Made by a program: the position numbers and the translations under genes | The notes under the pieces: generated by a model | Database searches by the model: none | What the model saw: only the letters and a program-made list of their open reading frames with translations | What the model was told of the DNA's origin: nothing | IMG/VR virus record: IMGVR_UViG_3300036792_000156 | Coordinates: 1 to 43,333 of that record | Strand: one strand, 5' to 3' | DNA: 43,333 nucleotides | Origin: a virus | Shown: positions 1,163-40,840 of the stretch, in pieces | How positions within the stretch are numbered: position 1 is the stretch's first letter | Layout of the letters: each line of letters begins with the position of its first letter

Positions 1163-1182
1163 ACGGCCTGCGGGCTAAGATC

Positions 1183-1190: not shown

Positions 1191-1222
1191 GCTGTCAAGC
1201 TGCGATTACGATTGCGGGCAGC

Positions 1223-4953: not shown

Positions 4954-4962
4954 CCACGGAGC

Positions 4963-4970
4963 GTTTACAC
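4963..4970 (+). repeat. GTTTACAC motif, site 3
   Basis: Intergenic, 10 nt after the protease stop and 10 nt before the first tandem repeat core. Context GCGTTTACACGTC. Confidence 0.88.
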
Positions 4971-4977
4971 GTCGCGA

Positions 4978-7201: not shown

Positions 7202-8238
7202 CCGCCCCCGACGTTCCCCTGCGGGTAACGACGGTGCTCCCGCCGGGGACGACGGGCGTGCCGTACCTCGGCGTGCTGACCGCCGAGGGCGGCGCGCCCC
7301 CCTACCGCTGGGAGGCCGAGGGGCTGCCGCCGGGGCTGGAGCTGGCCGGCGCGCGCGTCCTGGGCGCCCCGGAGGGGTTCGGCGTTTACACGGTCACGCT
7401 CGCGTGCACCGACGCGGCCGGCACCGTCACCGTCGCCGGGGAGCTGCTCGTGGCGGAGGCCGAGGCCGTGCCGCTGCCGCCGGGCGCGGACCCGGCGCTC
7501 GCCTACCCGCGCGCCGACGTGGAATGGATCGTTTACACGGCCGTGCGGCACCTCGGCGGGACCGTCGACTGGCTGCTGACCGCCGACGAGCGCGACCCGC
7601 GCACGTGGCTGACCGTGTCCAGCGTGCAGGTCGACGTGCGGGCGTCGTCCAAGCGCCTCGCCGCCGAGCGCGCCGACGCGGCGCGGCGGGTCGTCGCGGC
7701 GCTGCCGTGGACGTCCGGCGAGGGCGTCGTGGCCGCCGTCGACGTGATCGCCGGCCCGTTCTGGGAGCCGGACCCGTCGACCGGGCAGCCGCGCTACGTG
7801 ACGCGGTTCGCCGTCACCACCCACCCGCCGCGCCCCGGGGCGGCCGGGGTGCCCGCCGCGCGCGGCCCCGTCGACCCGGTGCTGGCGTTCGCGCGCCCGG
7901 CGGTGGAGCTGGCGGTGCGGGACGCGGTGCGCGACCTCGGCGGGACGGTCACGTGGTGCTACGCGGCGGCCGAGGCGCAGCCGCGCGGCTGGCTGAGTTC
8001 GGTCAACGTCCAGGTGGACGTGCGGGCCGGCTCGAAATCCGCCGCCTGGCGGCGCGCCGACGCGTGCCGCCGGGCGGTCAGTTCGCTTCCGTGGCGCGCC
8101 CAGCCATGGGGGGTAATCGCGAGCGTCGACGTGACCGAGGGGCCGTTCTGGTTCCCCGACCCCGGCGCCCGCTACGTAGCCCGGTACGCGGTGATGTGTC
8201 ACCCGTCGCGGCCGGCAAGGCAACCAGAGAAGGTGTAA
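7198..8238 (+). CDS. Tail terminator-like protein with Ig-like domain and duplicated terminator domain
   Basis: A 346-residue protein, much longer than ordinary tail terminators (about 110-150). Residues 12-86 look like a putative Ig (He_PIG-type) domain: VPYLGVLTAEGGAPPYRWEA, then GLPPGLEL and GVYTVTLACTDAAG. Residues 103-212 and 231-338 are two copies of one module. Both have LGGTVxW, VQVDVRAxSK, ERAD or RRAD with a following Arg-rich helix, LPW, and DVxxGPFWxPDPxxxRYVxRxAV. This is the expected position for a tail terminator, before the major tail protein. GTTTACAC copies at 7384 and 7531 lie inside the gene, and the TAA stop is within a third copy. Confidence 0.75.
   Translation: MTAPDVPLRVTTVLPPGTTGVPYLGVLTAEGGAPPYRWEAEGLPPGLELAGARVLGAPEGFGVYTVTLACTDAAGTVTVAGELLVAEAEAVPLPPGADPALAYPRADVEWIVYTAVRHLGGTVDWLLTADERDPRTWLTVSSVQVDVRASSKRLAAERADAARRVVAALPWTSGEGVVAAVDVIAGPFWEPDPSTGQPRYVTRFAVTTHPPRPGAAGVPAARGPVDPVLAFARPAVELAVRDAVRDLGGTVTWCYAAAEAQPRGWLSSVNVQVDVRAGSKSAAWRRADACRRAVSSLPWRAQPWGVIASVDVTEGPFWFPDPGARYVARYAVMCHPSRPARQPEKV
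7384..7391 (+). repeat. GTTTACAC motif, site 4
   Basis: In the tail terminator gene, encoding VYT in the Ig-like domain. Context GCGTTTACACGGT. Confidence 0.8.
7531..7538 (+). repeat. GTTTACAC motif, site 5
   Basis: Same gene as site 4, 147 nt downstream (a multiple of 3, so again VYT). Context TCGTTTACACGGC. Confidence 0.8.
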
Positions 8239-12700: not shown

Positions 12701-14347
12701 GCCGTGCGCGCGCCCGTCGCGTGGGTCGTGTCCAACGTGATCAACAAGCTGATCGGCGGCATCAACGCGCTCGTGACGAAAATCGGCATCCCCGCGATCC
12801 CGGCCATCCCCGGGTTCGCCGAGGGCGGCCGGATACCCGGCGGGTGGGGCGGCGGCGACACGCGGCTGATCATGGCCGAGCCGGGGGAGTGGGTGCTGAC
12901 CAAGCGCCAGGCCAAGGCGATCGGCTACGGCAACCTGCGGGCGCTGCCGCACTTCGCGCAGGGCGGCATGGTCGGCCACGTCCGCCCCGACGCCCCCGAG
13001 AGCCTCGGCCCCCAGGCGCGCATCCCCGAGTGGATCAGGGACGTGGGCGGCGCCGTCGCCCGGGTGACCCACATCGACCAGCTCGCCAGCGCCGGCAAGG
13101 AACTGTTCGACGACGTGATGGGGATGCTGACCTACGCCGCCGCCGAGCTGTTCAAGGCGCTGACCGCCCCGTTGCGCAAGCTCGCCGAGCCCTACGCGAA
13201 CGACCCCGTCGTGTTCCCCAAGCAGTGGCTCGGCAAGCTCATGCTCACCGTCATCGACAAGGCCGTCGAGTTCATCACGAGCAAGTCGATGGGGTCCTGC
13301 GACGCGGGCGGCCTCGTCGGCGCGATGCAGAAGTACGAAGGCCACAAGTACATTTGGGGCGGGGCGGCGGCGCCGGCGGGCGGGTTCGACTGCAGCTCGT
13401 TCGTGAACTACATCGCCGGGCACTACGGCAAGCTGCCGCTTCCGGGCGGGTTCAAAGCGCCGTCGCCGTCGCACGGCCCCAACACCACCATGTGGCTGTC
13501 GTTCGGCGGGATGGACCGAATCCCGCTAGGCGGCACCCGCCCCGGGGACGTGGCCGTCAACAGCCATCACATGGGGTTCATCATCGGCCCGAACGGGTCC
13601 GGGTTCGCCGCGCGCGGCAAGGACTCCGGGGTGGGCAAGCAGTCGTTCGCGCGCGGCTACACCTACCTGCGGTGGAAGGGCGGCGGCGACGCCACCGCCG
13701 CCGGGGACTGCGGGCCGGGCGGGTCGGCGGGCGACGGGCCGCCGGGCAACTTCCCGTCCGGCGTGCGCAACTACGCGGCGATCACCGGGCAGATCGCCCG
13801 CCAGCTCGGCGTCCCGCAGTGGACCAACGTCTTCCTGCAGCAGATGCAGTCGGAGTCGAACGGCAACCCGCGCGCCGTCAACAACTGGGACTCCAACGCC
13901 CGCCGGGGCACCCCGTCCAAGGGCCTCATGCAGCTCATCGACCCGACGTTCGCCGCCTACGCCGGCCCGTACCGCAACCGGGGTATCTGGGACCCGACGG
14001 CGAACATCTTCGCCGCGATCAACTACGCGGTGAAGCGCTACGGCAGCCGCATCCCCCAGGTGCTCGGGCGCGGCCACGGGTACGCGCGCGGCGGCATCAT
14101 CAACGAGCACGTGGTGGGCATCGGGCAGTCGTCGGGGGAGATCTACCAGATCGCCGAGGCGGGCCGGCCCGAGGCGGTCGTGCCGCTCGGCGGGCGGCGC
14201 AACGTCCTCGACGCCGCCGACACGTTTACACGCGGAGGCCGCGGCACCGTGATCAACGTCTACCCGCAGGCCGGGCAGTCCGAGGAGCAGATCGCCGCGT
14301 CGGTGGCCCGCCGCATGGCGTGGGCCGAGGCAGGGGGGATGATATGA
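9719..14347 (+). CDS. Tape measure protein with NlpC/P60 and lytic transglycosylase domains
   Basis: A 1542-residue protein that sets tail length and probably degrades peptidoglycan during DNA entry. Order: helical N-terminus; hydrophobic segments around residues 390-740; four 44-residue repeats beginning with an I(V/W)N(A/G)IRGFL motif at residues 757, 801, 845 and 889; a Gly/Ile-rich link ending in PAIPAIPGFAEGG; an NlpC/P60-like peptidase near 1193-1320 with Cys1225 in GGFDCSSFVNYI and His1283/1284; and an SLT-type transglycosylase near 1345-1460 with likely catalytic Glu1379 in MQSESNGNP and GLMQLIDPTF. The final stretch has GRPEAVVPLGG, common at tape measure ends. GTTTAAAC at 11020 and GTTTACAC at 14224 lie inside. 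Confidence 0.93.
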   Translation: MANGQYGALSIRVTADTRQMTANIARDATRAGAGAAQGIGREVSRGVAGLKGVLGAVGEAAAVGLTAATVAAGGFAVEAFKTAARAGEMDATLRALAQANGLSYDAMQQSVQAIRGQGIEAGVAQNLVAQFARNQLDLGQSTDLARVAQDAAVISGQNSSDTLDQLIHGITTQNSLVLRNAGVNVQAGQAMDTYAASIGKSRAELTPAERAQAVLNAVMEAGTSIAGSYSAAMEEPGKVLRSYPRLFDDIRLSIGRGLVQGFGPLIIKGYELTKTFAGALEPGGKLAPVMDAIGVVATRIAAPIGVVIDKVTAWVKGLDTASVQRFADGLKSWGPLLATAAGGLALVTSPQILSNLPFMGNAVSNIGLAFTKSFIGPMTQGGTATTSLGKAFEFLKSPMGLAIAAFALLMAVSPEFRKAVMDLGSAIMGALVEAFKQIWAAVQPVIPPLIELVRVIGGALAQVLVAVAPLITALVRAAVSLLPAVLPLIPPLIDLTVAVLRPLLPVLVAVAGALSAVLQWLAPLLPVILAVVGAWYAYQAAMAAVQVAQSLVSFAQMIPFLIQYALGIESITIATVAQAIASKIAAAATWLFNAALTAAGGWVGLIIIAVAAFVAGIVLLYQKCEWFRNLVQVVWGAIKVAIDAVVGAVVTLWHWIVGGSPGLIPAFQLLATVFGPVIAAIRLGFQGLIQLAQWVTAGIAAAWNWLSGAVTTAVGFVLSWLRANWPLVLGIIGGPIAMAVVLVIRYWSQIQAGTAAIVNAIRGFLAGAWAAIRNTVTSIMAALTSAVAASWTWLRNTTSAIVNAIRGFLVAAWTAIRNVVTGIANALSRAVAASWQWLSAQVSAIVNGIRGFLSAAWTAIRNIVAQTAQAAARAVAAAWEWTRGATTQIWNAIRGFLAGLWNAIRAIVAAAVTWVQQRIAQGWNIIRAVTAQIWSAVANVIRGTWDGIRGTVQAAVSWVQQRMGQAWEAIRVAASNAWNGILNTIKNVWERLKEAVRAPVAWVVSNVINKLIGGINALVTKIGIPAIPAIPGFAEGGRIPGGWGGGDTRLIMAEPGEWVLTKRQAKAIGYGNLRALPHFAQGGMVGHVRPDAPESLGPQARIPEWIRDVGGAVARVTHIDQLASAGKELFDDVMGMLTYAAAELFKALTAPLRKLAEPYANDPVVFPKQWLGKLMLTVIDKAVEFITSKSMGSCDAGGLVGAMQKYEGHKYIWGGAAAPAGGFDCSSFVNYIAGHYGKLPLPGGFKAPSPSHGPNTTMWLSFGGMDRIPLGGTRPGDVAVNSHHMGFIIGPNGSGFAARGKDSGVGKQSFARGYTYLRWKGGGDATAAGDCGPGGSAGDGPPGNFPSGVRNYAAITGQIARQLGVPQWTNVFLQQMQSESNGNPRAVNNWDSNARRGTPSKGLMQLIDPTFAAYAGPYRNRGIWDPTANIFAAINYAVKRYGSRIPQVLGRGHGYARGGIINEHVVGIGQSSGEIYQIAEAGRPEAVVPLGGRRNVLDAADTFTRGGRGTVINVYPQAGQSEEQIAASVARRMAWAEAGGMI
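11020..11027. repeat. Palindromic GTTTAAAC inside the tape measure gene
   Basis: Context GCGTTTAAACAG. No TATAAT at the 22-nt offset, so it is not another promoter copy. Confidence 0.7.
14224..14231 (+). repeat. GTTTACAC motif, site 7
   Basis: Near the 3' end of the tape measure gene, encoding part of TFTR. Context ACGTTTACACGCG. Confidence 0.8.
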
Positions 14348-15402: not shown

Positions 15403-16592
15403 TGACCAGCCCCGCCGCCTCCGCCCGCGCCTACCGGCCGCGCCCGGCGCCGCTGCCGGACCAGTGGACGTTCTGGGCGTCGACGGTCGTCGGCGGCGCG
15501 AACCTCGGGCTGCTGCGCCCGCACGGCTTCTCCTGCACGTCGCGGCTGTCCGGGTTCGGGTCCGGGCAGGTCACCCTCCCGATGGAGCCCGGCGCCCTCG
15601 ACGGCGACCGCCTCACGCGCCTGTGGTCCTACAAGATCTGGGCGTACTACGGGACGGCGCCGTACTGGTGCGGGGTGCCGTCCGGCATCGCCGACGACGG
15701 CTCTAACTACGTGTCGCTGACGCTGACCGAGCTGAGCGGGTACCTGGCCAAGCGGGTCCTCGACGTGCCCGGCGGCGTCCGCTACAGCCAGGTCGAGCAG
15801 ACCGAGATCGCGCGGCAGCTCGCCGCGCCCGTCGCCGACGTGGGCGTCGTCCTGGCGGTCGACGCCGGGCCGGGGTTCCCCCGTGACCGCTCGTACGAGT
15901 ACCTGGAAGGGGAGAACCGCGCGACCCTGCTCGCGAACCTCTCCCAGGTGATCAGCGGCCCCGAGTTCCGCACCGAGTACGACCGCGACCCCGCCGGGCA
16001 GCCCCGGTGCACGCTGCGGATCGCCTACCCGCGCGTCGGCGCCAACGCCTACCTGGTGCTGTCGGTGCCCGGCACCGCCGCCGCCTACGGCGCGTCATGG
16101 GACGCCGACAACCTCCGCACCCGCACGTTCGCCGTCGGCGACCTCCCCGAGGACGCCCCCGAGGACGCCGTCAAGCCCGTGGTGATCGTCGACCGGCCGC
16201 AGGCCGAGCTGCCGCGCCTCGACGTGGTCGACTCGTGGGAGCAGACCTACCTGATATCGACGCTGACCGAGCGCGCCAACACCAGCGCGACGCTCTACGC
16301 GCAGCCGGCCCTCGACCTCGGCGCGACCGCCACGACCGCCAACCCCGACCCCACCACCTACCGGGTCGGCGACGACGTGACCGTCCGGCTCGTGACGCCG
16401 CTGCTGGAAGGCGGCCTCGACGTGCCGGGGCGCCTCACGCAGGTCGACGTGTCGGCCGGCTCGGGCACCGTGACGTGGACCGTGGCCGTCACGGTCCCGC
16501 CGCCGCGCGCCCGCGCCCCGCTCACCGCCCGCCTGACCACGATGAACAGCCGTGTAAACGCGGTGTTCCGCCGCCGCATGGCCCCCGTTTAA
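15399..16592 (+). CDS. Minor tail protein, ReqiPepy6 gp37-like
   Basis: A 397-residue protein resembling Gp37-like baseplate or tail-associated proteins of actinophages: FSCTSRLSGFGSGQVTLPME near residue 47, YEYLEGENRATLLANLSQV near 165, and a strand-rich C-terminus with RVGDDVTVRLVTPLL. The start overlaps the previous stop, with two consecutive ATG codons at 15399 and 15402. GTGTAAAC at 16552 lies within the gene, and the TAA stop is inside the palindrome GTTTAAAC at 16587-16594. Confidence 0.75.
   Translation: MMTSPAASARAYRPRPAPLPDQWTFWASTVVGGANLGLLRPHGFSCTSRLSGFGSGQVTLPMEPGALDGDRLTRLWSYKIWAYYGTAPYWCGVPSGIADDGSNYVSLTLTELSGYLAKRVLDVPGGVRYSQVEQTEIARQLAAPVADVGVVLAVDAGPGFPRDRSYEYLEGENRATLLANLSQVISGPEFRTEYDRDPAGQPRCTLRIAYPRVGANAYLVLSVPGTAAAYGASWDADNLRTRTFAVGDLPEDAPEDAVKPVVIVDRPQAELPRLDVVDSWEQTYLISTLTERANTSATLYAQPALDLGATATTANPDPTTYRVGDDVTVRLVTPLLEGGLDVPGRLTQVDVSAGSGTVTWTVAVTVPPPRARAPLTARLTTMNSRVNAVFRRRMAPV
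16552..16559 (-). repeat. GTTTACAC motif, site 8 (reverse)
   Basis: GTGTAAAC on the plus strand, encoding part of RVNA near the end of a minor tail gene, 28 nt before the palindromic copy at 16587. Confidence 0.8.
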
Positions 16593-16594
16593 AC
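16587..16594. repeat. Palindromic GTTTAAAC at a stop/start junction
   Basis: The TAA inside the palindrome ends the minor tail gene, and the next ATG (16597) follows 2 nt later. Context CCGTTTAAACGG. Confidence 0.82.
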
Positions 16595-16596
16595 GG

Positions 16597-22058: not shown

Positions 22059-22103
22059 GTACCCCACGCCCCGCCTCCCGGTTACCAAAGGGGGCCCGGG
22101 GGC

Positions 22104-22111
22104 GTTTACAC
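22104..22111 (+). repeat. GTTTACAC motif, site 9
   Basis: At the 3' end of the leftward gene 22106-22372, whose TAA stop it contains. Context GCGTTTACACGCG. Confidence 0.85.
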
Positions 22112-22372
22112 GCGCGCCGAGCGGTACTGCTGCGCGAGCCGTTCCAGCGCCGCCCCCGCGCGGTCGTCGCGCAGCGCCTCGACCGTGGCGTCGGTCAGCA
22201 GCACGTGGTACCCCTCGCGCAGGTAGCCGATCGCCATCACGAGCGCGTCGAGGGGGTCGGCGGCGGTCAGCCGCGACACGTCCGCCTGAGTCTTGTGCAC
22301 GACGATCCCGAACGCCTCGGAGCTGTCGTGGGTGGAGGTGTTGTGCCCGTAGCGGTGATTACGCCTGGTCAT
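22106..22372 (-). CDS. Hypothetical protein
   Basis: An 88-residue protein with no recognised family: MTRRNHRYGHNTSTHDSSEA, then LTAADPLDALVMAIGYLREG and a C-terminal helix ALERLAQQYRSARV. Its stop codon TAA is inside an exact GTGTAAAC motif (22104-22111). It is transcribed away from the control region at 22373-22752 and could be an early or lysogenic gene. Confidence 0.6.
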   Translation of the reverse strand: MTRRNHRYGHNTSTHDSSEAFGIVVHKTQADVSRLTAADPLDALVMAIGYLREGYHVLLTDATVEALRDDRAGAALERLAQQYRSARV

Positions 22373-22752: not shown

Positions 22753-22995
22753 ATGGGCAAGCTGAGTGACCTCGACCGCGCCGACGTGCCCAAGCACGTG
22801 CAGCTAGCGGACTGGATAAAGGCGCGGATCGACGACGGCACGTACCCGCCGAGGAGCCGCATCCCGTCGGAGTCGACCCTCGTGCAGGAAACCGGCTACG
22901 CCCGCGACACCGTCCGCAAGGCGATCGGCGTCCTCCTCGACGAGAACCGCGTCTACATCGTCCGGGGCCTCGGCACCTTCGTGACCCCGGCATAA
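22753..22995 (+). CDS. GntR-family winged-helix regulator (DNA-binding domain only)
   Basis: An 80-residue protein that is essentially a single GntR winged helix-turn-helix: QLADWIKARIDDGTYPPRSR, then PSESTLVQETGYARDTVRKA and IGVLLDENRVYIVRGLGTFV. Full GntR regulators carry an extra effector domain, absent here. It stands beside the integrase, with a repeat-rich upstream region, so it may control lysogeny or integrase expression. It is one of four HTH candidates for the protein that reads the dispersed CGTTTACACG sites. Confidence 0.8.
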   Translation: MGKLSDLDRADVPKHVQLADWIKARIDDGTYPPRSRIPSESTLVQETGYARDTVRKAIGVLLDENRVYIVRGLGTFVTPA

Positions 22996-26308: not shown

Positions 26309-27353
26309 CGTGTCGTCGGACGAACTTTCCCTGCGCGCGTGGTTCGCCGAGGCCGAGGCCGCCGCCGGGATCGCCAACCAGGTGTGCAGCACCGCGTTCT
26401 GCCCCGACACCCTCAAGCGCTGGAAGGCCGAGGGGAACCGCAAGGTGCTCGACGTCGAGGCGACCGTCGCGACCGTCGCCGCCGCGCTCATGACCGGGCA
26501 GGAACTCGGGTTCGGCCCCATGGCGTCGCTCCGCTCGATCGACATCATCAGGGGCACCCCCGCATTGCGCGCGATCGCGCTGCGGGCGCTCGTGCAGAAG
26601 CACGGGCACGACATCACGATCGTCGACGCCACCGAGCACCGCGCCGTCGTGCGGGGCCGCCGCTCCAACGGGGAAACGCAGCAGTCGGTGTGGACGATCG
26701 ACCGGGCGCGACTCCTCGGCGTCTACCCCGGCCCCGCCGACGGGCAGTGGCGCCGCCAGCCTCAGAACATGCTCGTCGCGCGCGCGTCCGCCGAGGTCGC
26801 CCGGTGGATCGCCTCTGACGCGATCCTCGGCATGCCCTACGTCTACGAGGAACTCGTCGACGCGCCCTATGAAATCCACCGCGACGAGCCCGCCGAGGAC
26901 AGCCCGCAGGCCGCCGAGGAGGCCGCCCGGCCGAAGCGGGCCCGCACCGCGAAGCGCAGCACCCGTGTAAACGCCTCGCCGCTGGCGCTGCTCCCGCCGC
27001 CGCCGCCGCCGCACCCCGACGACAGCAGCGGCACCCCCGGGCCGCCCTCGCCGCCGCTCGGCGCGGACGGCAGCGAGGTGCCCGCCCCCGCCGAGCCCGC
27101 CGCCGAGAGCGAGGCGCCGCCGCTGATCAGCCGGCCCGCGCTCGCCGCCCTGCACATCAAGCTCCGCGAGGCCGGCCTCACCAGCTCCGCCGCCGCCCTC
27201 AAGCGGATCAGCGAATGGGCCGGGCGGGAGGTCACCAGCACCAAGACGCTGACCGCCGCCGAGGCGTCGGCCGTGCTCGGCAAGCTCGCCGACGCCGCCG
27301 CCGAGGCCCGGCCCGCCGAGGAGGAGGGAGACAGCAGTGCTGATGACCAATGA
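26301..27353 (+). CDS. RecT-like single-strand annealing protein
   Basis: A 350-residue protein. The first 190 residues resemble actinophage RecT-like proteins: VATVAAALMTGQELGFGPMA, then SLRSIDIIRGTPALRAIALR and LVARASAEVARWIASDAILG. Residues 200-275 form a Pro/Ala-rich linker with a run of seven Pro. The final 80 residues form a helical domain (RPALAALHIKLREAGLTSS, then TAAEASAVLGKLADAAAEAR). It promotes annealing of complementary single strands. GTGTAAAC lies in the linker at 26965. Confidence 0.82.
   Translation: MTDVSSDELSLRAWFAEAEAAAGIANQVCSTAFCPDTLKRWKAEGNRKVLDVEATVATVAAALMTGQELGFGPMASLRSIDIIRGTPALRAIALRALVQKHGHDITIVDATEHRAVVRGRRSNGETQQSVWTIDRARLLGVYPGPADGQWRRQPQNMLVARASAEVARWIASDAILGMPYVYEELVDAPYEIHRDEPAEDSPQAAEEAARPKRARTAKRSTRVNASPLALLPPPPPPHPDDSSGTPGPPSPPLGADGSEVPAPAEPAAESEAPPLISRPALAALHIKLREAGLTSSAAALKRISEWAGREVTSTKTLTAAEASAVLGKLADAAAEARPAEEEGDSSADDQ
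26965..26972 (-). repeat. GTTTACAC motif, site 10 (reverse)
   Basis: GTGTAAAC in the linker part of the recT-like gene, encoding part of RVNA. Confidence 0.8.
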
Positions 27354-27582
27354 CGCGGCTAACCAGCTCGCCGGCCGCGCCGACGTGTACCTGCGGTTCG
27401 GCGGGGCGATGCTGAGCCGCGACGACCTCGCCGCGATCGTCGCGGACTGGACCGAGGCCCGCGCCGTCGTCGCGCACGTGATCGCCCTGCACCGCCAGGC
27501 CCGCGAGGAGCTGTCGGCGACGGATGCCGGGGCCGCGCACGACCGCGGCGACGTTTACACGCCGCCGTGGGCGCCGTCGTGA
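27337..27582 (+). CDS. Hypothetical protein
   Basis: An 81-residue, mostly helical protein (RDDLAAIVADWTEARAVVAH and onward). GTG 27337 or ATG 27343 may be used; a GGAGGGAG lies upstream. A GTTTACAC copy at 27553 encodes VYT near the C-terminus. No family recognised. Confidence 0.6.
   Translation: MLMTNDAANQLAGRADVYLRFGGAMLSRDDLAAIVADWTEARAVVAHVIALHRQAREELSATDAGAAHDRGDVYTPPWAPS
27553..27560 (+). repeat. GTTTACAC motif, site 11
   Basis: Near the 3' end of the gene at 27337, encoding VYT. Context ACGTTTACACGCC. Confidence 0.8.
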
Positions 27583-31752: not shown

Positions 31753-32885
31753 GCTGGTTCAAGCTCGACGACGGGTTCCACAGCCACCCCAAGGTGGCCG
31801 CGATCTCGGACGCGGCGGCCGGGCTGTGGGCGAAAGCGGCGAGCTGGTCCGTCGACTACGGCACTGACGGGCGCGTCCCGGTGAGCGCGGTTAGATTGCT
31901 CGTTTCGAGCAGGAGGTGGTCCCACCTGGTGCGCGAACTGTGCGACGTTAACCTGTGGGAAGCCGACCCGGGCGGCGACGGGTTCCGGTTCCACAACTGG
32001 GACCGCTACCAGCCCTATTTCGAGGCGCGCCGCCAGGCGCACGCCGAGGCCCAGAAAGCCTACCGGCAAAGGGTTTCCGCGCCCGCAGCCCCGCCCGGCG
32101 AGGGCGAAAGTGATGATCACGTGACCGATCACGTGACCGTCACCGGCGGATCACGTGATCAGTCACGTGATGATCACGTGACCGTCACCGGCGGATCACG
32201 TGACGATCATGTGACCACCTCGCGCGCGTCCGCGCGCGCGTCCGCGCACGCCCGTCCCAGACCTACTGGGGCTACTGCATCCTCATCCGTTACAGGTAGC
32301 AGCGCGCGCGAGCCCGCGACGGACGATGATGATGATCGGAGTCGTGTAAACGGGTTCGTGCCGCCGGCCGCGCAGCAGGCCGCCGCCGTCATCGCCCAGG
32401 TGCACGAGCTGACCGGCGTGGTCCTGGCGCCCGCCGCCGCCGAGGCGGTCCGCGATGACATCCTCGGCGACCGCCCGGGGGTCCGCGACGCCGGCGGGTA
32501 CCTGCGGTCGGCGATCGCCGCCGAGCACCGCCGCGACCCGTCGCTGACGCGGTGGCTCGCCCCGGCCCGCCGTGGCACCCCGTCGCCGCGCCCGGCCGCC
32601 GGGGTGCTCGCCGACGCCGCCGAGGGCCGCCCCGAGGCCGACCCGTCCACCGCGCACCGTGGCGCCGAGGCCGCGCGCGCGCTGCTCGCCGCCCGCGCGC
32701 CCAGGCCGCCCGAGCCCGCGCCGCCCGTCCCGGAGGCGCCGACCCCCGCCGAGCTGCGCGCCGCCCGCCTCGCCGCCGAGCCCGACGAGGACCCGCCCCC
32801 CGACCCCGGCCCCCCCGACTGGCCCCCCGAGCCCCCCGCCGCCGACGACGGCGACGACGCCGCCGACATGGAAGTTCCGTTCTAG
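31749..32885 (+). CDS. Replication initiator-like protein
   Basis: A 378-residue protein. The N-terminus (SWFKLDDGFHSHPKVAAISD, then LWAKAASWSVDYGTDGRVP) matches the winged-helix start common to phage replication initiators and replisome organisers. Residues 122-165 are a low-complexity segment translated from a repeat array (DDHVTDHVTVTGGSRD repeated), followed by an Ala/Arg/Ser-rich stretch. Residues 200-280 form a second helical domain (AAVIAQVHELTGVVLAPAA), and the tail is very Pro/Asp-rich. As no polymerase or helicase gene is present, it probably loads host replication proteins. Its gene carries the likely origin, as in lambda gene O. Confidence 0.68.
   Translation: MSWFKLDDGFHSHPKVAAISDAAAGLWAKAASWSVDYGTDGRVPVSAVRLLVSSRRWSHLVRELCDVNLWEADPGGDGFRFHNWDRYQPYFEARRQAHAEAQKAYRQRVSAPAAPPGEGESDDHVTDHVTVTGGSRDQSRDDHVTVTGGSRDDHVTTSRASARASAHARPRPTGATASSSVTGSSAREPATDDDDDRSRVNGFVPPAAQQAAAVIAQVHELTGVVLAPAAAEAVRDDILGDRPGVRDAGGYLRSAIAAEHRRDPSLTRWLAPARRGTPSPRPAAGVLADAAEGRPEADPSTAHRGAEAARALLAARAPRPPEPAPPVPEAPTPAELRAARLAAEPDEDPPPDPGPPDWPPEPPAADDGDDAADMEVPF
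32115..32213. repeat. CACGTG iteron array, probable replication origin
   Basis: CACGTG occurs at 32118, 32130, 32152, 32164, 32175 and 32197, with a degenerate CATGTG at 32208. Start-to-start distances are 12, 22, 12, 11, 22 and 11 nt, so the sites face one side of the helix. Most lie in GATCACGTGA. A 32-nt segment is directly repeated at 32127-32158 and 32172-32203. An alternating CG tract follows at about 32220-32250. Confidence 0.82.
32344..32351 (-). repeat. GTTTACAC motif, site 12 (reverse)
   Basis: GTGTAAAC in the initiator-like gene, about 130 nt after the iteron array, encoding part of RVNG. Confidence 0.8.
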
Positions 32886-34138: not shown

Positions 34139-34583
34139 CCCCTCGCCGTGGCTCGCCGCGCAGGAAACCCGGGTCGTCGCCGCCGCCGACCTGTGCGGGC
34201 GCGCCGGGGCGCGTCAGTTCCAGATCGGCTACCTCCACGAGGACGTGCCCGCGCACGAGGCCGGCTGGTTCGCGCACGCCCAGTTCCGGGGCGCGCGGAT
34301 CACCGCCGAGGACCACTCCAGCCCCGGCGACGCCGCCGAGGCCCTCGCGCTCAAGCTGCTGACCGGGGCGCGCTGCGCGTGCGGGAAGCTCGTGCAGCTC
34401 ACCCCCGGGGGAGCGCTCGCGTTCCGCCGCCCCCGGATGGCCGACGGCACCACGTGGACCGCCGAGGAGGCCGCCGCCGCCGGGCAGTGCCGGTGGCGGC
34501 GCGTCGGCCCGCGCTGGTACAAGGGCTGCGGCGACGTGCCCGCCGCCGCGGACGCGTTTACACGCCCTGCGGGGCACCCGTGA
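34131..34583 (+). CDS. Hypothetical protein with Cys pairs
   Basis: A 150-residue protein with FQIGYLHEDVPAHEAGWFAH, a CACGK cluster and two later single Cys. An exact GTTTACAC motif (34556-34563) encodes part of AFTRPAG at its end. Overlaps both neighbours by a few nucleotides. Function unknown. Confidence 0.58.
   Translation: MTSPSPWLAAQETRVVAAADLCGRAGARQFQIGYLHEDVPAHEAGWFAHAQFRGARITAEDHSSPGDAAEALALKLLTGARCACGKLVQLTPGGALAFRRPRMADGTTWTAEEAAAAGQCRWRRVGPRWYKGCGDVPAAADAFTRPAGHP
34556..34563 (+). repeat. GTTTACAC motif, site 13
   Basis: Near the 3' end of the gene at 34131, encoding part of AFTR. Context GCGTTTACACGCC. No exact copy lies to the right of this one. Confidence 0.8.
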
Positions 34584-35861: not shown

Positions 35862-35892
35862 TCGGCGGGTGGCTCTCGCCGGGTTCATGGGA

Positions 35893-35927
35893 ACGGCCCC
35901 CGGAGGTTGACTACCTCCGGGGGCCGT
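35893..35927. terminator. 15-bp hairpin between convergent operons
   Basis: ACGGCCCCCGGAGGT at 35893-35907 pairs perfectly with its complement at 35913-35927 around TGACT. It sits between the rightward genes ending at 35861 and the leftward genes ending at 35951, the expected place for a bidirectional terminator. No U-tract is present, as is common in high-GC actinobacterial systems. Confidence 0.8.
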
Positions 35928-35950
35928 GCAATGTGTCGGCCCGCCGCCTT

Positions 35951-36307: not shown

Positions 36308-36341
36308 GTGACGTGTCCCTTCGTGTGTTCCTTGCCTAGGT

Positions 36342-36403
36342 GCGCGGGCGGCCCCTCCGCCGCGCGCACCTGCACCTACATTGTAACCGCTGTCGGCGTA
36401 AAC
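36342..36403 (-). promoter_or_regulatory. Divergent copy of the leftward promoter/leader element
   Basis: On the minus strand: a GTTTACGC word (plus 36396-36403), TACAAT (plus 36380-36385) 18 nt after it, GTAGGTGCAGG, then GGCGGAGGGGCCGCC. It matches the five main copies in order but differs at several positions, including the -10 box and a spacing shorter by 4 nt. It would drive the gene at 35951-36307. Confidence 0.6.
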
Positions 36404-36410
36404 GACCTGT

Positions 36411-36770
36411 TCACGCCCGTCCGCCGGGCCGCCGCTTGCGCCACTGCGACACCGCCTGCTTGGTGATGCCGACCTCGGCGGCGATGTCCGCCCACGAGTA
36501 GCCGTTGGCCCGCAGCCCGTCGATCGCCGCCGTCGCCGCCGCCTCGGCCTCGCCGAGCATCGCCCACACCTCGCGGAACTCCGCCGGGTCGCCGTCGACC
36601 CGCCGGGCGAGGGCCCGCACCATGCGGCGGGTCATCGCGGCGACCTCGGCCGTCTCCCGCGTCCGCTCGGCGCGGCGCCCGGCCCGCGCGCACGCGTCGC
36701 TGCAGAAGCGCCGGCGCGGCGGCTTCACCTGCGCGCGGCATCCGGGTGCCGCGCACGTGCTCTGTATCAT
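36411..36770 (-). CDS. HTH protein with N-terminal Cys cluster
   Basis: A 119-residue protein. Residues 6-27 hold four Cys (C6, C11, C23, C27) in a small zinc-binding arrangement. A helical middle is followed by a clear helix-turn-helix NGYSWADIAAEVGITKQAVS and QWRKRRPGG. It is a likely transcription regulator and a candidate to bind the CGTTTA elements. No copy of the repeated promoter element lies directly upstream, so it may be read through from the gene at 36917-37228. Confidence 0.7.
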   Translation of the reverse strand: MIQSTCAAPGCRAQVKPPRRRFCSDACARAGRRAERTRETAEVAAMTRRMVRALARRVDGDPAEFREVWAMLGEAEAAATAAIDGLRANGYSWADIAAEVGITKQAVSQWRKRRPGGRA

Positions 36771-36916
36771 GATCCTGCCCGCCTTTCGTGTGGCAGGCGC
36801 GGCCGGGTTGTCATCGTGTGGCCCGTCCGCGCCGGCCGGGTTCCCGGCCCCTCCGGGGCCCGGCCGTGGGGCGGGGGCCGGCCTCATCCGGTCCCCGTCC
36901 CGCGTAGCTCCCCGCG

Positions 36917-37228
36917 TCACAGCACCGGGAGCTGCGCGATTTCCCCGGCGGTGAGCCGGCCGCCGGTCGCGTCGGCGAGGGCGTCGGCCCACTCGCGGTA
37001 CAGCACCGGCCCGTCGCCGGGGGTGCCCTCGTCGCGGTACAGCCGCAGGTCGTCGTCGCCGTCGATCACGTACCGGCCGACCTCGTGCCGGCGGACCGCC
37101 GCGACCCGGTCGCCCTCGACCGTCCACAGCGTGAACGCCGCGCCGTCGGGTACCGGCACCGCGACGCCGCCCGCCATTCCGGCGGTGTAGTGCGGGTCGG
37201 TGATCTCGATGATGTAGTCGTCGCGCAT
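36917..37228 (-). CDS. Hypothetical protein
   Basis: A 103-residue strand-rich protein (YIIEITDPHYTAGMAGGVAV, then AFTLWTVEGDRVAAVRRHEV, YVIDGDDDLRLYRD). It lies directly behind promoter copy 37244-37300, with GGGGGGAG upstream of its ATG. Function unknown. Confidence 0.6.
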   Translation of the reverse strand: MRDDYIIEITDPHYTAGMAGGVAVPVPDGAAFTLWTVEGDRVAAVRRHEVGRYVIDGDDDLRLYRDEGTPGDGPVLYREWADALADATGGRLTAGEIAQLPVL

Positions 37229-37243
37229 GTCGCGCTCCCCCCT

Positions 37244-37300
37244 GCCGGGCGGCCCCTCCGCCCTGCACTTACATTATACCCCCTAGGGGGGCGTTTAAAC
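37244..37300 (-). promoter_or_regulatory. Repeated leftward promoter/operator/leader, copy 1
   Basis: Minus strand order: CGTTTAAACG (GTTTAAAC at 37293-37300), 14 nt, TATAAT (37273-37278), GTAAGTGCAGG, then the hairpin GGGCGG-AGGGG-CCGCCC (to about 37248). The palindrome occupies the -35 position. Drives the gene at 36917-37228. The start point is expected near the GTAAGTGCA. Confidence 0.82.
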
Positions 37301-37334
37301 GCCCGCGGACCCACTGTGACCTGCCTTTAAACGC

Positions 37335-37367
37335 AAAAAAGGACCGGGCGGGATCGCTCCCGCCCGG
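37335..37367 (-). terminator. Rho-independent terminator for the gene at 37396
   Basis: On the minus strand CCGGGCGGGA and TCCCGCCCGG (plus 37344-37353 and 37358-37367) form a 10-bp stem with a 4-nt loop, followed by TCC and six U (plus 37335-37340). A textbook intrinsic terminator, 29 nt after the stop codon. Confidence 0.9.
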
Positions 37368-37395
37368 CCCGCCTCGGCGCGCCCTCCGTGCGCTG

Positions 37396-37848
37396 TCAGC
37401 CCGCCAGCTCCACGGCGGCGGCGATGGCTTCCACCATCTCGGCCGGCGCCAGCGCCAGGTACTCCCGCCCGGCCGTGGTCGTGACCTGCATCCAGCCCCG
37501 GTGGGTGCCGACCGCCGCGATGGCGGCAACCGGGATCGTCACGGTGCCGTTCACCTTGACCTGGCGGACGTTGCCCCACGGCCCCCGGATCATCTCGCGG
37601 GGGACGGCGCCGACCCCGCCCCGCAGGACCAGTGCGCGCCCGTTCCACTCGGCGCAGCCGCCCTTGCCGGTGAGGTGCCGCGCGGCGGCGCGCTGCTTGG
37701 CGTCGCGGTCGGCGGCGGCGTCGGTGGCGGCCCTGGATTCCGCGATCGCCGCCACGGCGGCCTCGGTCCTGGCCTTTTGCTCGCGGTCCTTCGCGGCGTC
37801 GGCCTGCACCCGGCGGTTGAAGTCGGCTACTTTCTTGATCCATCCCAT
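37396..37848 (-). CDS. Hypothetical protein with PH-like or SHOCT-like C-terminal part
   Basis: A 150-residue protein. The first 65 residues are a charged helix (MGWIKKVADFNRRVQADAAK and onward), possibly coiled coil. The second half is strand-rich: GGVGAVPREMIRGPWGNVRQ, then VNGTVTIPVAAIAAVGTHRG and a final helix. The style resembles small beta-domain proteins that sense or bind partners; no firm family. Transcribed from promoter copy 2. Confidence 0.6.
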   Translation of the reverse strand: MGWIKKVADFNRRVQADAAKDREQKARTEAAVAAIAESRAATDAAADRDAKQRAAARHLTGKGGCAEWNGRALVLRGGVGAVPREMIRGPWGNVRQVKVNGTVTIPVAAIAAVGTHRGWMQVTTTAGREYLALAPAEMVEAIAAAVELAG

Positions 37849-37865
37849 GTGTCGGTCCCCCTGTC

Positions 37866-37922
37866 GCCGGGCGGCCCCTCCGCCCTGCACTTACATTATA
37901 CCCATTAGAGGGGCGTTTAAAC
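37866..37922 (-). promoter_or_regulatory. Repeated leftward promoter/operator/leader, copy 2
   Basis: GTTTAAAC at 37915-37922, TATAAT (plus 37895-37900) with the same 22-nt offset as copy 1, then the conserved leader hairpin down to 37866. The 14 nt between palindrome and TATAAT differ from copy 1 (ending CTAATGGG), so the conserved parts are the two boxes and the leader. Drives 37396-37848. Confidence 0.82.
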
Positions 37923-37974
37923 GCGCGGCAACGTCGTTGACGTGCGACACCGTGTAGCGAATCGCGACATGCAA

Positions 37975-38007
37975 AACGGGCCGGGCGGGATCGCTCCCGC
38001 CCGGCCC
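37975..38007 (-). terminator. Rho-independent terminator for the SprT-like gene
   Basis: A 13-bp stem (plus 37978-37990 with 37995-38007) with loop TCGC, followed on the minus strand by GTTTTGC. The inner 24 nt are identical to those of the terminator at 37344-37367, so the terminator has been copied along with the cassette. Confidence 0.85.
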
Positions 38008-38021
38008 GCCGGCCGGCCGTC

Positions 38022-38687
38022 TTACGCTGCCTCCTCCATCGTCACGCCGTGCGGGCACATCGGCAGGCCCGCCTCGATCCACTTGCGGGTCGCCCGCACC
38101 GTGTAGCCGCAGTCCGGCGCGACCAGCTTGATCATCCGCGTGCCCTGCTTCGCCGGGCCGCTGTGCACCTTCGGCGGCACGACCGTCCCGTCGTCGCCGG
38201 CGCCGCCCGCCGGGACGGGTACCTTCGCCAGCTCCGGGTCAAGCTTGCCGTGGTCGAACGGCCCCAGCTCGGCAGCCATCACCGCCAGCTCGGCCGCCAG
38301 CTCCACCGTCGGCGGGGTCTGGGTCATCGGCCCGTTGAACCCCAGCCGCGTCGCGGCCTCGGCGAACGCGCCCTTGTGGCCGCTCGCGTTGTCGTCGGCG
38401 ACGTGGATCAGCTCGTGCAGCAGCGTGATCAGCATCTCGGCCGGGTCGGCCTCCATCGGGCCGATGAACACGTGGTTGACGCCGTCGGCGCTCGCGATCC
38501 GCGCCCACGTCTGCCCGGCGATGTACTTGCTCTCGGCGCGGCTTCCGTACCCGAACCCCACGCTCACGTGGACGTGCTCGGGCAGCGGCAGCCCGACCTC
38601 CTCGAAACGCGGCCGGAACATCCCGATCGCGCGCTCCAGCCATGCCTCGCGGCTCATGTCGGTCCGCTCCGTCTCTTGTGCGCTCAT
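38022..38687 (-). CDS. SprT-like zinc metalloprotease
   Basis: A 221-residue protein with the zinc-protease motif HELIH at residues 91-95 and a third His at 104 in DDNASGHKGAFAEAATRLG, as in SprT/Spartan-like enzymes. The C-terminus holds a small zinc-ribbon-like part (DCGYTVRATRKWIEAG, then MCPHG). SprT-like enzymes degrade DNA-crosslinked proteins; the target here is unknown. It is the only leftward gene with a clear biochemical assignment and sits alone behind promoter copy 3, with its own terminator. Confidence 0.85.
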   Translation of the reverse strand: MSAQETERTDMSREAWLERAIGMFRPRFEEVGLPLPEHVHVSVGFGYGSRAESKYIAGQTWARIASADGVNHVFIGPMEADPAEMLITLLHELIHVADDNASGHKGAFAEAATRLGFNGPMTQTPPTVELAAELAVMAAELGPFDHGKLDPELAKVPVPAGGAGDDGTVVPPKVHSGPAKQGTRMIKLVAPDCGYTVRATRKWIEAGLPMCPHGVTMEEAA

Positions 38688-38702
38688 CGCTTGCCTCCCC
38701 CT

Positions 38703-38759
38703 GCCGGGCGGCCCCTCCGCCCTGCACTTACATTATACCCCTGGTGAGGGCGTTTAAAC
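38703..38759 (-). promoter_or_regulatory. Repeated leftward promoter/operator/leader, copy 3
   Basis: TATAAT at plus 38732-38737, GTTTAAAC at 38752-38759 and the leader hairpin to 38703. GGGGAGG precedes the ATG at 38687. The operator is part of a 36-bp perfect palindrome (separate entry). Confidence 0.82.
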
Positions 38760-38773
38760 GCCCTCACCAGGGG
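38738..38773. repeat. 36-bp perfect palindrome at promoter copy 3
   Basis: CCCCTGGTGAGGG at 38738-38750 and its complement at 38761-38773 flank CGTTTAAACG. It lies between the stop of the upstream leftward gene (38783) and the TATAAT box, so it may act as terminator for that gene and operator for the next. Confidence 0.88.
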
Positions 38774-38782
38774 TGACGCCGC

Positions 38783-39085
38783 TCACGCGGCCCGCTGCGC
38801 CTCGCGCGCCCGCGACTCTGCGAGCAGGTCCCGCACCTCGGCGAGGTCGGCCTCCAGCCGCACCGCCGCGCGCGGGCCGCTGTACTGCCGCGTCACCCGC
38901 GAGCCCCGCTCGATCCGGCGGGCGCGCTCCCGGTACTGCACGAGGTAGAACTCGGGCTCGGCGTGGCCGCGCCGGACGTGCCGGAACACGACCGCCGTGA
39001 TCACGTTCCGGTCGTCGTCGATCCCGTGGATCACCTCGACCCGCTGCGTCCCGGTGCGCGGCACCTGGTGGTTAGCCATCGTCAC
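38783..39085 (-). CDS. Hypothetical protein
   Basis: A 100-residue basic protein: VPRTGTQRVEVIHGIDDDRN, then FYLVQYRERARRIERG and a final helix RLEADLAEVRDLLAESRARE. GTG 39085 overlaps the previous stop (ATG 39079 is possible). Second gene of the two-gene unit behind promoter copy 4. Confidence 0.58.
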   Translation of the reverse strand: MTMANHQVPRTGTQRVEVIHGIDDDRNVITAVVFRHVRRGHAEPEFYLVQYRERARRIERGSRVTRQYSGPRAAVRLEADLAEVRDLLAESRAREAQRAA

Positions 39086-39264
39086 TCGCCCCCCTCGAAG
39101 ACGTGCATCACGCGGATGGCCGCGTTCGGGAACCGCTCGTGCATCTCGATCGCCGCCAGGCCGGCGGCCTCGCGCTCGTCGTGGGCAGTGACCGTGATGG
39201 TCCGGTAGTCGCAGCCGGCGACGCCGTACCCGGCGCGGACCCCTGCGCGGTAAGTCGTGGTCAT
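39082..39264 (-). CDS. Hypothetical small protein
   Basis: A 60-residue protein with a strand-helix-strand look: YRTITVTAHDEREAAGLAA, then IEMHERFPNAAIRVMHVFEG. First gene behind promoter copy 4, with GGGAGGGGGG upstream of ATG 39264. Function unknown. Confidence 0.58.
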   Translation of the reverse strand: MTTTYRAGVRAGYGVAGCDYRTITVTAHDEREAAGLAAIEMHERFPNAAIRVMHVFEGGE

Positions 39265-39279
39265 GGTGTCCCCCCTCCC

Positions 39280-39336
39280 GTCGGGCGGCCCCTCCGCCCT
39301 ACACTTACATTATACCCCCGGCCACGGCGTTTAAAC
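39280..39336 (-). promoter_or_regulatory. Repeated leftward promoter/operator/leader, copy 4
   Basis: TATAAT at plus 39309-39314, GTTTAAAC at 39329-39336, leader hairpin to 39280. Two single-base differences from the other copies, GTGTAGG for GTGCAGG and CCCGAC for CCCGGC, both outside the hairpin stem. Confidence 0.82.
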
Positions 39337-39350
39337 GCCGTGACCGGGGG
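39315..39350. repeat. 36-bp near-perfect palindrome at promoter copy 4
   Basis: CCCCCGGCCACGG at 39315-39327 and CCGTGACCGGGGG at 39338-39350 flank CGTTTAAACG with one mismatched position. The arm sequence differs from copy 3, but the length and symmetry are the same, so symmetry rather than sequence is kept. Confidence 0.85.
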
Positions 39351-39359
39351 TGACGCGCC

Positions 39360-39656
39360 TCACCTCAGCTCGTGCTGCTTGCCTGCGTCCGGGTTCGCCG
39401 CGCAGTACCACGGCCCGTCGCGGTTCGGGTCCGTCGTCGCCCACCGCCCCTGCTCGACGCCGATCGCCTCGCCGCAGTGCCGGCACGTGTCCGGGCGCGC
39501 CGCGTACGGCGACTCGCACCCCTCGTCGTGCGGGCGCTTCCAGTCCGCCCCGCAGAACGGGCACCAGTCGCCGCCCATCCCGAACGGCGTATGGTCCTCC
39601 ACCTCGCCCGCCGTCACCGCGTCCCACAGCGCGTCGTACTGCTCCCGCGTCATCAC
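39360..39656 (-). CDS. Hypothetical zinc-finger-like protein
   Basis: A 98-residue protein with two Cys groups: WCPFCGADWKRPHDEGC and CRHCGEAIGVEQG, plus a later Cys. Probably binds one or two zinc ions. Start GTG 39656 in a GTGA overlap, or ATG 39653. Last gene of the four-gene unit behind copy 5. Confidence 0.62.
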   Translation of the reverse strand: MMTREQYDALWDAVTAGEVEDHTPFGMGGDWCPFCGADWKRPHDEGCESPYAARPDTCRHCGEAIGVEQGRWATTDPNRDGPWYCAANPDAGKQHELR

Positions 39657-39862
39657 TCGCCACCTTCCCCGGCGGCCTCCGCCGCCGCGTTCACCTCGTC
39701 GACCGTCCACCCCTTGCCGAGCAGGTACGCCCGCGCGGACAGCCGCTCGCGCATCGCCTTGGCCGTCGGCCCCGGCGTGCGCAGCAGCGCCACCGCGTCC
39801 AGCTCAAGCGCCTTGAGCATCCCGTCGCGGAGCGGCTCGCCGTCCCTCCCGTACCGCATCAC
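39653..39862 (-). CDS. Hypothetical small protein
   Basis: A 69-residue helical protein: GMLKALELDAVALLRTPGP, then AMRERLSARAYLLGKGWTVD and an acidic Ala-rich end. Start GTG 39862 or ATG 39859, each overlapping the upstream stop. Function unknown. Confidence 0.57.
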   Translation of the reverse strand: MMRYGRDGEPLRDGMLKALELDAVALLRTPGPTAKAMRERLSARAYLLGKGWTVDEVNAAAEAAGEGGE

Positions 39863-40074
39863 GCGACCTCGAATTCTGCCGCCGCGAGCGCCGCGAAGTC
39901 GTAGGCGTCCGTGTCGTCCATGCGCGGCGCGGCCACGGCCAGCCATGCCCGGCGGTCAGCCTCGGCGTAGCCCGCCGCGATCAGCAGCCGCATCGCGGTC
40001 ACTGGCAGCGCCCGCCGCCACGCGGCCAGCGCCCCGGCCTCGGCCGCCTGGTCGATGATCTTCCGTGCCCTCAT
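39859..40074 (-). CDS. Hypothetical small protein
   Basis: A 71-residue helical protein (RKIIDQAAEAGALAAWRRAL, then AMRLLIAAGYAEADRRAWLA). ATG 40074 overlaps the stop of the gene before it (ATGA). No family recognised. Confidence 0.57.
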   Translation of the reverse strand: MRARKIIDQAAEAGALAAWRRALPVTAMRLLIAAGYAEADRRAWLAVAAPRMDDTDAYDFAALAAAEFEVA

Positions 40075-40352
40075 GCCGCCACCTCCACAATCACGGTCTC
40101 CTCGGCCGCCGGCACGGTCACCCGGCGCCCCCTCATCTCGCCCGCCGCCCACTCGACGGTGTCCTGCTCCTTGCTCCGCCAGGTCTTGGCGACGGCCCAG
40201 CCGCGCTGCGGGTCGTAGACCCACCACGGGTCGGACCACGCGCCGGTCACGTGCAGGCCGTCCACCGTGTGGTGGCGCCCGCCCCGGATGAACTCCAGCG
40301 GCGCCTGCGCCTGCGCCTGGTAGCCCTCGATCATCTCGCCCGCGTGCATCAT
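40071..40352 (-). CDS. Hypothetical protein
   Basis: A 93-residue protein with several Trp: LEFIRGGRHHTVDGLHVTGA, WSDPWWVYDPQRGWAVAKTW, and a strand-rich end. Start ATG 40352, or the adjacent ATG at 40349. First gene of the four-gene unit behind promoter copy 5. Confidence 0.6.
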   Translation of the reverse strand: MMHAGEMIEGYQAQAQAPLEFIRGGRHHTVDGLHVTGAWSDPWWVYDPQRGWAVAKTWRSKEQDTVEWAAGEMRGRRVTVPAAEETVIVEVAA

Positions 40353-40363
40353 GCCCCCTACCT

Positions 40364-40420
40364 GCCGGGCGGCCCCTCCGCCCTGCACTTACATTATACC
40401 CCCCGCTAGGCCGTTTAAAC
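40364..40420 (-). promoter_or_regulatory. Repeated leftward promoter/operator/leader, copy 5
   Basis: TATAAT at plus 40393-40398, GTTTAAAC at 40413-40420 (22-nt offset kept), leader hairpin to 40364. Transcription would cover four overlapping genes down to 39360. Rightward from here the DNA leads to the XRE gene at 40511, so this is a divergent control region. Confidence 0.82.
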
Positions 40421-40510: not shown

Positions 40511-40840
40511 ATGACCCGCACACGCAAAACCGCGCCAGTCATCGACGGAAGCGCCATGATGACCGCCCGCCGCAAGGCCAAGGTCAGCAGGCGCGACGCC
40601 GCCGAGAAGCTCGGCGTGTCCGAATCGGCGATCAACGCCTACGAACAGGGCCGCTCCGACCCCTCGGCGCGCGTGCTCGTCATGATGGCCTGGCTCTACC
40701 GCGTCCGGATCGAACGCCTCGTCAGGCCCCGCGAAGCCATCCAGGCCGAGTACGACGAGACAGCCGAGACAGCCGCGCCCGCCGGCCCCGGCGACGACGA
40801 CCCGCCCGCACACCCCCGAGCAGAGGAACCCGCCGCATGA
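40511..40840 (+). CDS. XRE-family helix-turn-helix regulator
   Basis: A 109-residue protein with a clear XRE/Cro-type domain: MMTARRKAKVSRRDAAEKLG, then VSESAINAYEQGRSDPSARV. An acidic, Pro-rich tail follows. It stands divergently next to promoter copy 5, a typical place for a regulator of that promoter, and is a leading candidate to bind the GTTTAAAC operators. The ribosome-binding site before ATG 40511 is weak. Confidence 0.8.
   Translation: MTRTRKTAPVIDGSAMMTARRKAKVSRRDAAEKLGVSESAINAYEQGRSDPSARVLVMMAWLYRVRIERLVRPREAIQAEYDETAETAAPAGPGDDDPPAHPRAEEPAA

Follow-up and report, generated by a model that had tools for sequence, protein, structure and literature searches.

The stretch considered here, which we call the window, is a whole IMG/VR virus record (IMGVR_UViG_3300036792_000156; 43,333 bp, GC content 73.8%), and our subject is a promoter-like element repeated ahead of its leftward genes, together with a palindromic word scattered over the genome. 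According to the gene calls made in this analysis, to which all gene coordinates refer, the window encodes a terminase, a portal, an amidase endolysin, a serine integrase, an exonuclease and a RecT-like protein. Judged from the sequence, this is the layout of a temperate siphovirus, and the window is that of an uncultured actinobacterial phage. Its cultured kin are distant, its terminase having 23-26% identity over most of its length to those of actinobacteriophages. A terminase search found the relatives G001 at 94%, G002 (IMG/VR contig IMGVR_UViG_3300043811_000116) at 83%, and remoter contigs at 59-70% identity.

On the minus strand, five units open with the palindrome GTTTAAAC, 14 variable nucleotides ending in GGG, and the 33-nt block TATAATGTAAGTGyAGGGCGGAGGGGCCGCCCG, which starts at 40398, 39314, 38737, 37900 and 37278 (P1 to P5 in Table 1). 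The block is identical in four of the five copies and has one mismatch in the copy at 39314, while the start of GTTTAAAC is always 22 nt upstream of TATAAT, so that both the near-identity and the constant geometry reported in an earlier sequence-only reading are confirmed. The word GTTTAAAC occurs seven times in the window (0.02 expected from shuffles), and TACATTATA occurs five times exactly (about 0.1 expected with one mismatch permitted); the five exact copies of GGGCGGCCCCTCCGCCC lie at the five promoter places. Read leftward, the order is a GTCAC box, 13 nt, GTTTAAAC, the 14 nt, TATAAT, GTAAGTG, the leader hairpin (yAGGGCGG-AGGGG-CCGCCCG), a G-rich Shine-Dalgarno-like stretch and a start codon. 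Each copy heads a small gene or a short gene run with a leader of 37-66 nt, again as first described. The divergent sixth copy noticed in that reading is also present, with TACAAT, a longer hairpin, and GTTTACGC 18 nt upstream of TACAAT, compared to 22 nt in the other five. A -10-like match at 25257-25269 was rejected as a further copy; an operator is lacking there, and the match is part of a local palindrome.

The -10 sequence of the five copies is perfect, but a sigma-70 test found no canonical -35 box at 16-18 nt, and a consensus promoter scan gave no match. The -35 place, from about -34 to -27, is occupied by GTTTAAAC. We take the five elements to be putative promoters, and both their anatomy and their conservation in G002 favor the combination of promoter, operator and leader hairpin that was originally suggested.

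The contig G002 carries two copies at the syntenic place, beside the orthologue of an XRE-family regulator gene, and in both of them the 22-nt distance between GTTTAAAC and the -10 is kept; the element is thus no private duplication of the window. The G002 proteins neighboring these copies are 57-78% identical to their window counterparts. One of the copies separates two genes whose window orthologues overlap each other; copies are thus gained or lost with gene junctions. In the searched IMG/VR, GTDB and phage records, the element was found in the window and G002 only: exact patterns gave chance AT-rich matches in IMG/VR until the leader pattern was relaxed, the GTDB genomes gave two chance Bacteroidetes matches, and the phage records gave none. 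An XRE-based scan for further relatives returned G002 alone. The SprT relatives LazerLemon, Floof, Maureen and L068 were rejected as carriers of the element, the protease being all they have in common. In L068, a distant 82-kb contig, positions 2094-3315 hold three copies of a 60-nt repeat containing TTGACAT with gene-start-like spacing, perhaps repeated promoters of its own.

The operator word extends well beyond the promoters. There are 7 GTTTAAAC and 13 GTTTACAC in the window, and the full core CGTTTAmACG is found 18 times, five at promoters and 13 elsewhere. Apart from GC-rich codon repeats, this core tops the over-represented words of the genome, and both dinucleotide shuffles and the reversed word give zero occurrences. 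Away from the promoters, a stop codon is found no more than 45 nt from eight of the 13 sites, where 1.5 would be expected (p=0.00015); sites that fall inside genes impose codons with a usage of 0-2% for their amino acid. The promoter sites are all of the symmetric form GTTTAAAC, while 12 of the 13 others are GTTTACAC, carrying C (Fisher p=0.0007). In G001, five of the seven sites are at positions homologous to the window, namely ahead of the terminase gene, ahead of the capsid gene, at the 3' end of a tail gene (two sites spaced 35 bp), and in the RecT linker; the pre-capsid site is kept in G002 as well, there in the GTTTAAAC form. No CGTTTAmACG was found in the more distant relatives G003, G005, G006 and G008.

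At P2 and P3, the 14 "variable" nucleotides turn out to be an arm of a 38-bp palindrome. Neither these palindromes, nor the role of the spacer as their arm, nor the genome-wide site set was part of the sequence-only reading. The arms of the two dyads differ in sequence while the pairing is retained, and at P2 the one departure from perfect pairing is read as a G-U wobble on the leftward strand, which points to RNA and not to extra protein contacts. P2 and P3 are the window copies that lie directly behind a leftward gene with no other terminator; P4 and P5 have an ordinary hairpin terminator upstream, and P1 has no leftward gene upstream. The G002 copy behind a gene has a dyad of -23.4 kcal/mol, and the first G002 copy one of -12.2 kcal/mol. 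Long dyads (-38.0, -37.9 and -23.4 kcal/mol) are thereby found in all three copies without a separate upstream terminator and in none of the other four, for which the values are -8.4 to -14.5 kcal/mol (Fisher p=0.029). Each of the six leftward units tested has at its end a hairpin with a folding energy of -30 kcal/mol or below; compared with random segments, these hairpins lie close to the 5% tail or past it. The long dyad probably also terminates the upstream transcript.

We interpret the region as an array of operator-headed leftward units belonging to a genome-wide operator set for one phage regulator, with stoperator-like silencing, and estimate the probability of this reading at roughly 0.6. 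At the head of each unit, an operator (GCGTTTAAACGC) would stand where a -35 box is expected, a strong -10 (TATAAT) would follow, and the transcript would open with a short stable hairpin. One phage-encoded DNA-binding protein, most likely the XRE-type product of 40511-40840, would read the at least 18 CGTTTAmACG sites across the genome. In the lysogen it would sit on the symmetric GTTTAAAC sites and silence the early leftward promoters, and on the GTTTACAC sites, mostly at gene 3' ends, it would stop stray transcription as stoperators do. For a unit directly behind a gene that lacks a terminator, a longer operator dyad would allow the RNA of the upstream gene to fold into a terminator hairpin, and the roles of terminator, operator and promoter spacer would then be combined in a single 38-bp segment. 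The hairpin at the 5' end would most likely protect the mRNA or fix the structure of the leader.

It has to be pointed out that several observations weigh against this interpretation. The experimental support comes from other phages only, and all relatives used are genome fragments. The case for the XRE protein as the binder is built on position and two genomes, and the site form GTnTAnAC fits GntR proteins too, one of which is encoded in the window. The orientation of the asymmetric sites is mixed: in rightward genes, 8 follow the direction of transcription and 3 oppose it, and 1 opposes it in a leftward gene. A T run is missing from both long dyads of the window, so termination is uncertain there. 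Finally, the missing canonical -35 box and promoter-scan match make an activator at GTTTAAAC possible.

Table 1. Features of the window. For the repeated element, the gene spans are those that each putative promoter would drive.
Feature	Position	Strand	Remarks
P1	40367..40420	-	GTTTAAAC 40413-40420, TATAAT 40393-40398, hairpin 40367-40383; 40349-39360, four genes; syntenic G002 copy of equal geometry
P2	39283..39336	-	GTTTAAAC 39329-39336, TATAAT 39309-39314, hairpin 39283-39299; 39264-38783, two genes
P3	38706..38759	-	GTTTAAAC 38752-38759, TATAAT 38732-38737, hairpin 38706-38722; SprT-like protease gene 38687-38022
P4	37869..37922	-	GTTTAAAC 37915-37922, TATAAT 37895-37900, hairpin 37869-37885; 37848-37396
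P5	37247..37300	-	GTTTAAAC 37293-37300, TATAAT 37273-37278, hairpin 37247-37263; 37228-36917
Divergent sixth copy	36339..36403	-	GTTTACGC 36396-36403, TACAAT 36380-36385, longer hairpin 36339-36370; 36307-35951
GTGA-N6-TCAC dyad	39350..39363		13 nt upstream of P2 GTTTAAAC; likewise 38773-38786 for P3; both G002 copies too
Operator dyad, 38 bp	39314..39351	-	directly behind stop at 39360; -38.0 kcal/mol in leftward RNA; proposed terminator of upstream unit and P2 operator
Operator dyad, perfect 38-bp palindrome	38737..38774	-	directly behind stop at 38783; -37.9 kcal/mol; proposed terminator of upstream unit and P3 operator
Ordinary intrinsic terminator with T run	37341..37370	-	behind gene 37848-37396, upstream of P5
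Terminator near-identical to that at 37341..37370	37977..38007	-	behind SprT gene, upstream of P4
Strong hairpin	35892..35935	-	after last leftward gene; -35.1 kcal/mol
XRE-family (HTH_3) regulator gene, first candidate binder	40511..40840	+	divergent from P1; HTH_3 1.2e-10; G002 orthologue at same place with nearly the same recognition helix
Gene of 80-aa GntR-type winged helix-turn-helix protein, second candidate binder	22753..22995	+	HutC-type sites have the form GTnTAnAC; G001 has the sites, but no orthologue was found there
Two CGTTTACACG sites	1142..1191	+	upstream of terminase gene; site at homologous place in G001; TGTTTAAACG in G002
CGTTTACACG	4962..4971	+	right after stop codon at 4953, ahead of capsid gene; place kept in G001 and G002
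CGTTTACACG at 7383 and 7530	7383..7539	+	within gene; rare GTT codons
CGTTTACACG	14223..14232	+	close to 3' end of tape measure gene
Site pair, CGTGTAAACG 16551-16560 and CGTTTAAACG 16586-16595	16551..16595	+	3' end of tail gene; pair kept in place in G001
CGTTTACACG	22103..22112	+	at stop codon of leftward gene 22372-22106
CGTTTACACG	26964..26973	-	variable (diverged) linker of RecT-like gene; retained in G001
CGTTTACACG	27552..27561	+	stop codon 25 nt further on
CGTTTACACG	32343..32352	-	10 nt ahead of start of gene 32358
CGTTTACACG	34555..34564	+	stop codon 24 nt further on

In the alternative where GTTTAAAC is the site of a phage activator, for which lambda CII, acting at several promoters, is a model, the bound protein would replace the missing -35 contact and switch on the leftward units together, the scattered sites being weak or otherwise used. 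The location of the site in place of a -35 hexamer speaks for this, as does the GTGA-N6-TCAC dyad, which suggests a second DNA-binding protein. This dyad lies 13 nt upstream of the operator in four of the seven copies of the window and G002, and GTCAC itself keeps that spacing in three of the five window copies and both G002 copies. The dyad is at about -54.5, and the upstream gene uses its TGA as stop codon in three of the four copies that are perfect; a CRP-like reading is one possibility, and the dyad may be the site of a second regulator of host or phage. A further GTGA-N6-TCAC dyad, located between the exonuclease and RecT genes, is retained in G001. An activator would, however, have no need of 13 further copies that gather at gene 3' ends, are conserved in position and are costly in codons, and actinobacterial promoters with a perfect TATAAT can work without a -35 box. 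We therefore regard activation as unlikely. The 14 nt of GTGACGCCGCTCAC, which also occur upstream of P3, are found at 26255-26268, between the exonuclease and RecT genes, and a counterpart with one change is at 25957 in G001, also between these two genes.

Another option is that the operator system is the same as we propose but its binder is the GntR-type protein encoded at 22753-22995, beside the integrase. HutC-type GntR proteins bind GT-4nt-AC palindromes, NyGTMTAKACNy (PMC4494728), the dre sites of DasR/NagR being examples (PMC4494728, PMC4333415). Both GTTTAAAC, as GT-TTAA-AC, and GTTTACAC have the GT-N4-AC form, although T/A and not M/K is found at the variable positions, and the binder in the window is only a candidate. 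In its third helix the protein retains the Arg that reads guanine; it has Ser instead of the Arg that recognizes a G before GT, which agrees with the C before GT in the site. On the other hand, although G001 has sites, no orthologue lies in its stretch from gene 22106 to the integrase (its contig is without the right arm), G005 has a 38% identical relative yet zero sites, and R4-like phages with such a protein show no GTnTAnAC enrichment. The absence from the syntenic place in G001 and the comparison with the R4-like phages lower this candidate, and we consider it doubtful. The XRE gene is divergent from P1 in both genomes that cover the region, the window and G002, and VSESA(I/V)xxYEQG is retained in the recognition region of both proteins. 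At the head of this gene, TTGCAC, 17 nt, TAACGT, 6 nt and ATG follow one another, similarly in G002, and it appears to have a leaderless promoter. As the candidate binder, we would give the XRE protein about one half, the GntR protein about one sixth, and another protein the rest. The AT-richer gap at 22372-22753, with repeated AACTACAT, is possibly an integration or immunity region; it lies beside the leftward gene 22372-22106, which is 77% identical in G001 and of no known family.

The leader hairpin has a calculated energy of -14 to -17 kcal/mol, and the mRNA would start within a few nucleotides of it, assuming that transcription begins about 7 nt after the -10. In the sixth copy both stem arms are longer (GGTGCGCG/CGCGCACC; -31.5 kcal/mol, z -3.6), which favors an RNA fold. 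One G002 copy has a broken stem pair and still retains GGAGGGGCC, and GGAGGGGCCGCCCG and GTA-GTG-AGG are invariant in all eight copies, exceeding the conservation of the -10; the sequence itself thus also matters. That the hairpin could block false translation starts, as was first suggested, finds no support, given this weakened stem and the G-rich Shine-Dalgarno-like stretch that every leader has farther downstream. The invariant sequences could instead mean that the hairpin is recognized as a put/nut-like antitermination signal, letting the polymerase pass the hairpins between the units. However, every unit has its own promoter, which makes read-through needless, one copy tolerates the broken pair, and no Rfam family matched; we find this improbable. 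That the copies are merely recent segmental duplications of one promoter, alike through age and not function, is very improbable: P2 and P3 are 83% alike over 103 nt, but identity breaks off abruptly at the functional blocks, with divergence in the 14-nt spacer and in the flanks, and the G002 copies retain blocks and spacing in spite of the divergence of the neighboring proteins.

Two other repeat arrays were observed in the window. Between the protease and capsid genes, positions 4973-5131 hold tandem 44-nt units (CCCGTGCGTGCCCCGCCGGCGGC...), and each of the relatives has its own version at this gap (GAGCCCCGCACGGAGCCGG, GAGCCCTGCACAGAACCGGC, GCGCCCAGCACTGAACCGGC), the array being conserved while its sequence changes. 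At 32110-32216, an iteron-like array (GTGACGATCAC, GATCACGTGACC) in a non-coding gap is a possible replication origin or partition site.

Repression from scattered operators is established in R4-like Streptomyces phages (PMC10276819) and in Cluster A and MabJ phages (PMC6550527, PMC9934374). In the stoperator systems of these phages, many copies of one short site occur genome-wide (PMC6550527, PMC9934374, PMC10276819), mostly near gene ends and in short gaps, with at least one at an early promoter. The window likewise has 18 near-identical distributed sites with eight of 13 placed at gene ends, and five of its CGTTTAmACG sites overlap predicted promoters that may be early. It differs in having five operator-promoters where the stoperator systems have one, in a core that is symmetric at the promoters and takes a one-base asymmetric form elsewhere, and in mixed orientation of this nearly symmetric core, while stoperators are asymmetric and mainly in one orientation. 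The R4-like phages moreover enrich other words (TGTGCAAGTG), and tblastn with the Spernnie, Jevington and Marav repressors gave no match in the window or six related contigs, L5 Gp71 being outside the query set. With R4-like repressors absent and the orientation mixed, we do not claim membership in the Cluster A/R4 family. Each of the Streptomyces phages Sycamore, Spernnie, Jevington and Marav (L072-L075) has its own strongly over-represented word: AAGGGGTGGT in Sycamore, and TGTGCAAGTG and GTGTAAGTG in the R4-like phages, where they are probably the stoperators; GGTTTCGCCTT is also prominent in Jevington and Marav.

In SPbeta, the SPBRE site of the repressor MrpR is likewise repeated in the promoter regions of many prophage genes, but site, host and repressor fold are different, and the parts of that report available to us describe no leader hairpin or terminator overlap (PMC10516654). 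The likeness to the start-associated sequences of Cluster K mycobacteriophages, drawn in the sequence-only reading, is weak. Both the start-associated sequence (13-bp GGGATAGGAGCCC, a ribosome-binding-site core 3-7 bp from start codons) and the extended start-associated sequence just upstream of it (a 17-bp inverted repeat) are repeated ahead of small genes (PMC3203893), but neither constitutes a promoter with a -10. In the window, by contrast, it is a putative promoter that is conserved as a block, the start codon comes 37-66 nt past the predicted transcript start, and no 13-bp GGGATAGGAGCCC-like sequence was found 3-7 bp before the start in the window element. Among the systems compared, the stoperators come closest in the way they work, and the repeated operator-promoters find their nearest match in SPBRE.

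The system looks like an unrecognized variety of the multi-site repressor systems by which prophages are kept silent. More tentatively, and with the odds somewhat against it, it may be a lysogeny system whose single regulator has no relationship to the known stoperator repressors and uses two site forms, GTTTAAAC at promoters and GTTTACAC at gene ends, with operators lengthened into terminator hairpins and the functions fused within 38 bp. If this is right, silencing by operators spread over the genome would have evolved in actinobacterial phages with another, unrelated repressor and another site. Since these words can be read from sequence, they could be used to predict the immunity groups of uncultured phages. 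The fusion of terminator and operator would illustrate the insulation of single-gene units in a compact genome, and the copies would provide a matched set of natural promoters for GC-rich hosts.

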